Shown here piece after piece: positions 19,477 through 21,871 of a stretch of 64,000 nt of DNA. The stretch is taken from NCBI GenBank assembly GCA_019449555.1, contig JAGRPN010000280.1:1-64000 (forward strand), given 5' to 3'. Each line of letters starts with the position of its first letter. Position 1 is the stretch's first letter. The DNA is from Ramlibacter sp. Its GTDB lineage: Bacteria; Pseudomonadota; Gammaproteobacteria; Burkholderiales; Burkholderiaceae_C. The translations under genes and the position numbers were made by a program. The notes under the pieces are model-generated. The model saw nothing but the letters and a program-made list of their open reading frames with translations. It did no database searches and was not told the origin of the DNA.

Positions 19477-20157
19477 TCAGGCGAGGCCGCACCACATGGC
19501 GATGCGGTGCGACAGGTCCATCCACAGCGCCCACAGCGCCACCAGCACCAGCAGCAAGCCGGCTGTGCGGGTGCCCCAGTCCTGCTTGAACCGGTTGCCG
19601 GCCTGCTGCAAACGCGCGAACAGCGCCGGCGCCAGCGCCAGCGAAACGCCGCTGCCCAGCGCGAACAGCGCCATCGAGAGCGCCCCGTCGAGCGGTCCCC
19701 CGCTGAGGGACGCCACCAACAGGGCCGAATACAACAAGCCGCAGGGCATGAAAGCCCAGAGCATTCCAGCGGCGAACACGCCGCCGCGAGCGGTCGCCAT
19801 CGGCCGCACGCGCGTCCAGACGTTGCGGCCCGCGCTGCTGACCCAGCCCGGCTGCCGCGCTTGGGTGACCAGCATCAGCCCCCAGGCGAGCACGGCGAGA
19901 TGGAACAAGGTCCACACGGGTCTGAGCGCGGCGCTCTGCGTGGTGAGCCACCCCAGGCCTTGCACCGCGAAAGCAGCGGCGGCGCCTGCGGCCGAATAGC
20001 CCGCCAGGCGCCCGGCTTGAAATTCCACCAGCGAGCGCCACCGGGATCCGTCGCGCAGGCCGGTGAGACCGCCACAGGCCGCACCGCACATCGCGATGCA
20101 GTGCGGGCCGCCGGCCACGCCCATCAGCAGCGCGGAAAGCGCAAGCGTGGTGGACAT
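19477..20157 (-). CDS. Sulfite exporter TauE/SafE-like membrane protein
   Basis: LALSALLMGVAGGPHCIAMCGAACGGLTG...; downstream of hemN/fnr as in many beta-proteobacteria. Confidence 0.85.
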   Translation of the reverse strand: MSTTLALSALLMGVAGGPHCIAMCGAACGGLTGLRDGSRWRSLVEFQAGRLAGYSAAGAAAAFAVQGLGWLTTQSAALRPVWTLFHLAVLAWGLMLVTQARQPGWVSSAGRNVWTRVRPMATARGGVFAAGMLWAFMPCGLLYSALLVASLSGGPLDGALSMALFALGSGVSLALAPALFARLQQAGNRFKQDWGTRTAGLLLVLVALWALWMDLSHRIAMWCGLA

Positions 20158-20170
20158 GCGGCGGGACTAG

Positions 20171-20435
20171 GGCCTGTTCACACTGTTCTTGCCAGTGCGA
20201 ACGTGCTTAAAACCGCGCCAATCTAGGCGCGCGACGACGCCAAGGCTGGCCGCCTTGGCTAGGAGCGTAACAACGAGTGGCGCGGTTTTAAGCACGTTCC
20301 CTGCGGGTTGCGGCCAAAAGGGCCAATCGCGTTGTTGCGGCGGCTGGCCGCACGTCAAGTGCGGCTGCACCGCCGCGCCTAGCGCTTGACCCTTTTGACT
20401 CGCAACGCATCTGGCAAGAACAGTGTGAACAGGCC
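20171..20435. mobile_element. MITE-like non-autonomous element, 265 bp, 25-bp perfect terminal inverted repeats, flanked by CTAG/CTAG
   Basis: GGCCTGTTCACACTGTTCTTGCCAG at 20171-20195 vs CTGGCAAGAACAGTGTGAACAGGCC at 20411-20435; 29-bp match with CTAG included; internal IR 20200-20220/20278-20298; no convincing ORF. Confidence 0.75.
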
Positions 20436-21818
20436 CTAGATGATGCGCGAGAACTTCGTGCGGTTGCGGTCGGCCTGCAGGTAACGGTCGAACACCATGG
20501 CGATGCCACGCACGAAATACCAGCCCATCGGAGTCACCTGGATGCCGGAATCGTCGACGGTGACCAGGCCGGTACCCGTCATCTCCCGCAGCTGCTGCAG
20601 CTCCGGGGCGAAGTACTCATGGAAATCGAGCAGCCAAGCCAGCTCGATCGATTCGAACATGACCTGACCCTGGCACATGATGGCCATGATCACGGCGCGC
20701 CTTGCGAGGTCGTCCCGGCTCAAGGCGAGCCCGCGCGTCACCGGAAATTGGCCATGGTCGAGCAGGTCGCAATATTCCTCGAGCGTCTTGGCGTTCTGGC
20801 TGTACGTGGCGCCCACCCGGCCAATGGAAGAAACGCCCAATCCGATCAGGTCGCAGTCGGGTTGCGTGCTATAACCCTGGAAGTTGCGATGCAGCCGGCC
20901 CTGGCGCTTGGCCACGGCCAGCGAGTCGTTCGGCAGCGCGAAATGGTCCATGCCCACATATACGTAGCCGGCTTCCTGGAAGGACGCCAGCGACTGCGAC
21001 AGCATCGCGATTTTCGCGGCGCCGCCGGGCAATTCACTGGAAATGATGCGCCGCTGCGGCTTGAAGCGTTCCGGCAGATGCGCATACGCGTACAAGGCGA
21101 TCCGGTCGGGCCGCAACTCATTCACCTGCGCCAGCGTCCGCGCGAACGATTCCGGCGTCTGCTTGGGCAGCCCGTAGATCAGGTCCATGTTGATCGAGTC
21201 GAAACCGATCGCGCGGGCCTGTTCCACCAGCTTGGAGACCTGTTCGGCGGGCTGGATGCGATGGACGGCCTTCTGCACGTCCGGGTCGAAGTCCTGCACG
21301 CCGAAACTGATCCGATTGAAGCCCAGCTCGGCCAGCGTCGTGAGCCGCTGCTCGTTCACCGTGCGCGGGTCGATCTCGATCGAATACTCCCCGCCCGGCG
21401 CCAGCGCGAAACTGCGGCGCAGCATCGCCATCAGTTCCTTGAGCTCGGGATCGGACAGGAACGTAGGCGTTCCGCCGCCCAGGTGCAGCTGCGTGACGGC
21501 TTGGCCCAGGCCCAGCTCGGCCGTGTGAAGATCTACCTCGCGCGCCAGGTAACGCAGGTAACTGGCTGCCCGGTCGTGGTGCTTGGTGATGATCTTGTTG
21601 CAGCCGCAGTAGTAGCACAGCGACTCGCAAAAAGGGATGTGGATGTACAACGAAAGCGGCAGCGTCAGGGCGGCCGGTCCGGTGCGGCGCTGGACCAGCG
21701 CCTGGCTGTAATCGGCGGCCGTGAACGCCTCCACGAAGCGGTCGGCGGTCGGGTAAGAGGTGTAGCGCGGGCCCGGGATGTCGAACCGGCGCAGCAGATC
21801 GGGCGATAAAGGCGTCAT
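20436..21818 (-). CDS. hemN: Oxygen-independent coproporphyrinogen III oxidase
   Basis: FDIPGPRYTSYPTADRF...SLYIHIPFCESLCYYCGCNK radical SAM CxxxCxxC; LHLGGGTPTFL. Confidence 0.95.
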   Translation of the reverse strand: MTPLSPDLLRRFDIPGPRYTSYPTADRFVEAFTAADYSQALVQRRTGPAALTLPLSLYIHIPFCESLCYYCGCNKIITKHHDRAASYLRYLAREVDLHTAELGLGQAVTQLHLGGGTPTFLSDPELKELMAMLRRSFALAPGGEYSIEIDPRTVNEQRLTTLAELGFNRISFGVQDFDPDVQKAVHRIQPAEQVSKLVEQARAIGFDSINMDLIYGLPKQTPESFARTLAQVNELRPDRIALYAYAHLPERFKPQRRIISSELPGGAAKIAMLSQSLASFQEAGYVYVGMDHFALPNDSLAVAKRQGRLHRNFQGYSTQPDCDLIGLGVSSIGRVGATYSQNAKTLEEYCDLLDHGQFPVTRGLALSRDDLARRAVIMAIMCQGQVMFESIELAWLLDFHEYFAPELQQLREMTGTGLVTVDDSGIQVTPMGWYFVRGIAMVFDRYLQADRNRTKFSRII

Positions 21819-21871
21819 CTTGTCTGTTTCTTTGATGAACAATACTGTGCGGGCGCACAGGTCCCCCGCCG

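Follow-up and report, generated by a model that had tools for sequence, protein, structure and literature searches.

The usual view of MITEs is that they are passive remnants of insertion sequences (ISs). The Correia (CREE/NEMIS), ERIC and RUP elements and other bacterial MITEs are small, non-coding and multicopy, carry terminal inverted repeats, can be folded and lie adjacent to genes. REP/REPIN sequences with their RAYT are multicopy DNA hairpins in inverted pairs. Among the ISs, IS5 has been reported to prefer CTAG within Py-T-A-Pu as its target (PMC5493358).

The element described here lies in a window of 64,000 nucleotides (the whole stretch of Ramlibacter sp. DNA that was analyzed, from contig JAGRPN010000280.1). 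It has the listed properties of the Correia, ERIC and RUP MITEs but differs from them in a fixed four-way geometry with covariation, a class-wide range, one core with different ends, and stop-codon siting. Like REP/REPIN sequences, it is a multicopy inverted pair of hairpins; unlike them, it has a TA duplication, DDE-type ends and a length of 267 bp. With IS5-family ISs (DUF4096/IS427-like, and ISBmu2 for another end class) it shares the terminal ~20 bp and the YTAR/CTAG target, whereas it carries no gene, fits a TA rather than a 4-bp duplication best, and has a core in which inspection showed no similarity to the IS.

An element inserted in the hemN stop codon

Analysis of the region downstream of hemN revealed the following features.

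20170 to 20436, no strand assigned: MITE proper, 267 bp, GGGCCTG...CAGGCCC (copy alignment and flank statistics)
20168 to 20169, no strand assigned: left TA of the target duplication, inside CTAG 20167-20170 (flank statistics, 88 copies)
20437 to 20438, no strand assigned: right TA of the target duplication, inside CTAG 20436-20439 (flank statistics)
20170 to 20198, plus strand: left terminal inverted repeat, 29 bp, 5' strand of the basal stem; outer ~20 bp common to IS5-type ISs
20407 to 20436, plus strand: right terminal inverted repeat, 3' strand of the basal stem
20436 to 20438, minus strand: hemN stop TAG, target TA plus G of the element end (sequence; empty sites in relatives)
20436 to 21842, minus strand: full-length hemN (radical SAM, HemN_C), ending at the insertion (Pfam; relatives)
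19477 to 20157, minus strand: gene for a DsbD_2/TauE-SafE-like membrane protein, parted from hemN by the insertion (Pfam; relatives)

The inverted repeat arms at 20167-20195 and 20411-20439 comprise 29 nt, CTAG included at both sides, and are 100% complementary. This 29-mer has no other occurrence in the window (0 expected in shuffles). A preliminary description of the locus had proposed a MITE-like element of 265 bp with 25-bp repeats (29 bp with CTAG), flanked on both sides by CTAG, of which the right-hand one supplied the hemN stop TAG, and had left open whether CTAG or TA was duplicated. The 29-nt perfect repeats, both CTAG flanks and the stop codon at the junction were confirmed, but flank statistics placed the best boundary at GGGCC...GGCCC, 267 bp. 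In the 88 copies with flanks, the outer flank bases were distributed as CTA/TAG (29 copies), CTA/TAA (11), TTA/TAG (7) and TTA/TAA (4). Because these outer bases vary independently, the outer C and G were assigned to the target, and TA rather than CTAG fits best as the duplication. The hemN stop thus consists of TA from the target and G from the element.

The gene downstream of hemN encodes a DsbD_2-type membrane protein (PF13386), often annotated as TauE/SafE-like. In 27 of the 29 Ramlibacter relatives inspected at this junction, hemN is directly followed by the DsbD_2 gene with no element in between. In two relatives without the element, G068 and G007, hemN ends in the same ...ATCATCTAG stop as here. 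The empty site that had been reconstructed from the present sequence alone was therefore right, and the insertion is specific to the present lineage among those sampled. An ancestral operon of hemN and the membrane protein gene is inferred from tight synteny only. In another genome, 56 nt left over from the hemN 3' end lie beside a second copy of the DsbD_2 gene (L355:758-813, G034:C51), a vestige of the former hemN neighborhood.

Copies and derivatives

The genome itself contains about 11 recognizable copies with 81-96% identity. Several lie at contig ends, where a repeat would be expected. Matches were found in 15 of 36 sampled genomes of the genus. The element meets the definition of a MITE in being non-coding, shorter than 500 bp, bounded by terminal inverted repeats and multicopy, with a target duplication and empty sites. 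The feature at 20170-20436 is a genuine MITE insertion in the hemN stop, which was preserved.

Short forms of ~50 bp retain nothing but the basal stem. At three loci of G007 (L061, L062 and L067), arm 1 stands alone as a hairpin, with neither basal stem nor arm 2; these hairpins may be products of deletion or may move separately. The stem-only forms and the isolated arms indicate that deletions follow the modules of the fold described below. A perfect palindrome of about 160-190 bp (L107, G000:C252:14395-15554), itself flanked by palindromic sequence, lies at the exact center of a contig of 29,948 bp; it was judged to be probably an assembly fold-back at half an element and was rejected as a real form. 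Three loci of Ramlibacter G021 and G026 (L035, L036 and L047) carry a different repeat, ATTGCTCGCACCCGCG...ATTCACAGCTTCTG, with a similar CCCAGGCGGCCAGCCTGGG hairpin.

Carriage by plasmids or viruses was considered and rejected. Two members had no plasmid match, a third had one hit, in a 1.3-Mb Variovorax replicon, and a search of phage and viral contigs with members gave no match.

Insertion sequences with the same ends

An IS of ~830 bp in Ramlibacter G018 is of the IS5 type: its ends are TAGGGCGTGTTAACACT...GTGTTAACAGGCCCTA, and its two frames match DUF4096 and DDE_Tnp_1. ISs of Nitrosomonas europaea and Saccharospirillum begin with CTAGGGCCTGTTAACACTATTTYTG, as do many MITE copies. The ends of these IS5-type ISs match the element over about 20 bp, so that a further property of MITEs, ends shared with an autonomous transposon, is met by ISs in other genomes. 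Together with the copies and the empty sites, these ISs bear out the MITE-like element that had been proposed at the hemN stop. Neither the element's own genome, a 458-contig assembly from which ISs may be missing, nor the complete genome of G007 with its many copies yielded a transposase with matching ends. By inspection, although not against a full IS catalogue, similarity to the compared ISs is limited to the ends. An ordinary MITE was seen in Marinibactrum halimedae (L136:1628-1920), where a 293-bp element, derived from an IS5-type IS by internal deletion, has the same ends and no folded core.

Target preference and stop codons

TA was found on both sides in 61 of the 88 flanked copies. 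YTAR fits 51 of them and CTAG 29, the target preference required of an IS5-family derivative. A neighboring gene supported by GC3 ends exactly at the TA/G junction in 43 of 90 elements, against stops at 41 of 355 background YTAR sites of the same loci, or 41 of 191 outside coding sequence. The reconstructed original codon at 45 such gene ends was TAG in 24 and TAA in 14 (38/45). The gene calls behind these counts are heuristic. Loss of insertions within genes accounts for part of the excess at stop codons, but probably not for all of it. Across the family, the target TA and the first G of the element restore TAG, and this siting explains how the elements can accumulate in compact operons without breaking genes.

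A common predicted fold with compensatory changes

Besides the terminal repeats, the interior of the element comprises two hairpins of ~100 nt and a mini-hairpin.

20199 to 20299, plus strand: arm 1, imperfect hairpin of ~101 nt; internal-loop motif CTAGGCG...AACAACG conserved (122.6 bits with arm model R1)
20299 to 20307, plus strand: mini-hairpin CCCTGCGGG at the junction, family consensus CCCTNCGGG (CCC/GGG conserved in alignments)
20307 to 20406, plus strand: arm 2, imperfect hairpin of ~100 nt, inverted homologue of arm 1 (arm-1 model, minus strand, 65 bits)

Since the arm-1 model also matches arm 2 on the opposite strand, the element is made up of two related arms in inverted orientation. 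The predicted fold has an energy of -195 kcal/mol compared to -109 for shuffles (z = -17) and is very stable on both strands. To compare copies, 90 full-length elements from many genera were each folded alone. Nearly all of them revealed one and the same four-way junction, with a basal stem of 29-30 bp, arms 1 and 2 of ~98-102 nt each and a 7-nt mini-hairpin, at pairwise identities down to 45%. In the A1 alignment, 97% of cells pair and both sides have changed in 68 of 99 pairs; the corresponding values in the A2 alignment are 90.8% and 73 of 87. When the partners were slid by 1-3 columns as a control, only 34-45% paired. The structures used for covariation were derived from the same alignments, which favors them, whereas the individual folds were not so derived. 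Fold predictions use RNA parameters, and divergent copies could be aligned only approximately. As modeled, the fold shows strong compensatory changes between lineages.

One core behind different ends

Across the class, the arm model has matches in 64 of 274 genomes, and a genome often contains ten or more of them. Inspection of 20 matched loci revealed that most agree in core and length (mostly 259-268 bp, with TA flanks) and have different ends. End classes behind this core include GGGAAACGCTGATTAATG, CTCCGTCCAGGC, GTGTCCTGTC, GGAAGGCCTGCACG, GAGCTCATCTC and others; a dozen unrelated terminal repeats were seen around it. The residues that are invariant across end classes belong to the core only: C.AGGCG and AAC in arm 1, CC..GG in the mini-hairpin, and GTT and CCT.G in arm 2. 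The element's own genome carries the same core with a second, unrelated end class, GAGCCTGCGCG / GAGCCTGCGCGACAG (L345, G000:C300:7826-9036). One other end class matches ISBmu2-like IS5 elements. The ends of three further classes, searched in plasmids, gave weak or unrelated matches only. The different ends apparently serve to borrow the enzymes of different ISs; they may have been swapped or may have diverged along with their ISs, and either is possible.

A few copies contain a palindrome with GGGGTCAGA inside arm 2. Two loci (L009:1501-1851 and L093:502-847) have a palindrome of ~80 bp with GGGGTCAGATTCC, which we take to be a RAYT/REP-like motif, at the tip of arm 2. The insertion, being a palindrome in its own right, leaves the overall fold intact.

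The elements thus form a large family across Beta- and Gammaproteobacteria that is apparently undescribed. The end sequences were not found in the literature searched, which was available only in part, and a prior description in a Polaromonas MITE paper cited in a review is not excluded.

What may select the fold

The fold might be selected because its transcript acts as an RNA, on either strand, for instance in protection or cleavage of the hemN mRNA, as for Correia and ERIC, whose transcripts are known to be processed by RNases (reviewed in PMC10969869). The stability predicted for both strands, the position of copies directly after stop codons and the resemblance of the TNCG mini-hairpin to UNCG tetraloops would all agree with such a structured RNA. 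RNA helices tolerate G.U and do not tolerate A.C. In the element, however, G.U is not in excess over A.C among rare states (27 versus 25 and 38 versus 43), and shared states are similar, so that the preference expected of a structured RNA is not met. Moreover, 17 young copies of G007 revealed 29 private one-sided changes and a single two-sided one, with G.T about as frequent as A.C and stems nearly as variable as loops. Young resident copies decay uncompensated and their stems are unprotected. Relatives lack the element at the hemN locus, which leaves no conserved host role, and the curated covariance models of Rfam gave no match. Structured RNA was rejected as the main driver because G.U equals A.C and young copies decay one-sidedly, and a role of this kind is considered unlikely. 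A requirement that RNA of both strands fold in mobilization is not excluded, since insertions occur in either orientation and equal G.U and A.C would then also be expected.

The same one-sided changes bear on the possibility that the arms are kept matched by DNA hairpin correction, that is, by template switching between arms, a mutational process without selection on the fold. Hairpins provoke such correction events, and the changes are largely Watson-Crick and strand-symmetric. Against this, the 29 to 1 ratio in the young copies is not that of a correcting process, and the conserved unpaired motifs of the arms, the sole invariant residues across end classes, have not been corrected away; this explanation is given little credence. 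That the element is an ordinary deletion-derived MITE of IS5 with a palindromic core as passive filler fits its ends and target, but no similarity to the ISs inspected was seen beyond the ends, the core keeps its geometry throughout the class and is found with at least a dozen different ends, and both the covariation and the conservation of the core without that of the ends disfavor it, which makes passive filler very improbable. From the one-sided changes, inserted copies seem to decay neutrally while multiplying lineages keep pairing, which is most simply explained if the fold matters in mobilization. This points to selection on folded DNA during mobilization, not on resident RNA. Single-strand, lagging-strand transposition was rejected: no bias of element orientation with respect to the replication strand was seen in the complete genome G007 (11/18), so there is no specific sign of a lagging-strand single strand.

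Proposed mechanism and meaning

The element is probably a non-autonomous MITE in the hemN stop that is moved in trans by an IS5-family transposase and whose folded DNA is used in mobilization. A transposase recognizing GGGCCTGTTNACRCT ends would move it in trans and insert it into the TA of the hemN stop (target CTAG), with duplication of TA. The element starts with G, so that TA/G rebuilds TAG and hemN stays intact. Its core is a quasi-symmetric DNA palindrome, in which two inverted arms of ~100 nt with fixed internal-loop motifs surround the CCCTNCGGG mini-hairpin, and the two element ends form the basal stem. Most likely, a cruciform, or a folded single strand joining both ends as one duplex, would be used during mobilization, and only lineages keeping the fold would multiply. 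The copies, the empty site, the target, the shared IS ends, the common predicted fold with its covariation, the one-sided decay and the one core with different ends were established by comparison; that the element is mobilized in trans, that the fold forms in the cell and that it has a role in mobilization are inferences, and no transposition was observed. A wider proposal remains tentative and falls short of an even chance: a class-wide four-way-junction DNA module with invariant loop motifs, independent of its ends, that rides different IS5-family transposases and is recognized or processed as folded DNA in mobilization.

The conserved folded core with different ends is more interesting than the hemN insertion itself. 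A non-coding element keeps one folded shape class-wide while its ends differ and match different transposases, and compensatory changes occur between lineages, not within resident copies. If the fold acts in mobilization, this would be a case of DNA shape under selection in a transposon.
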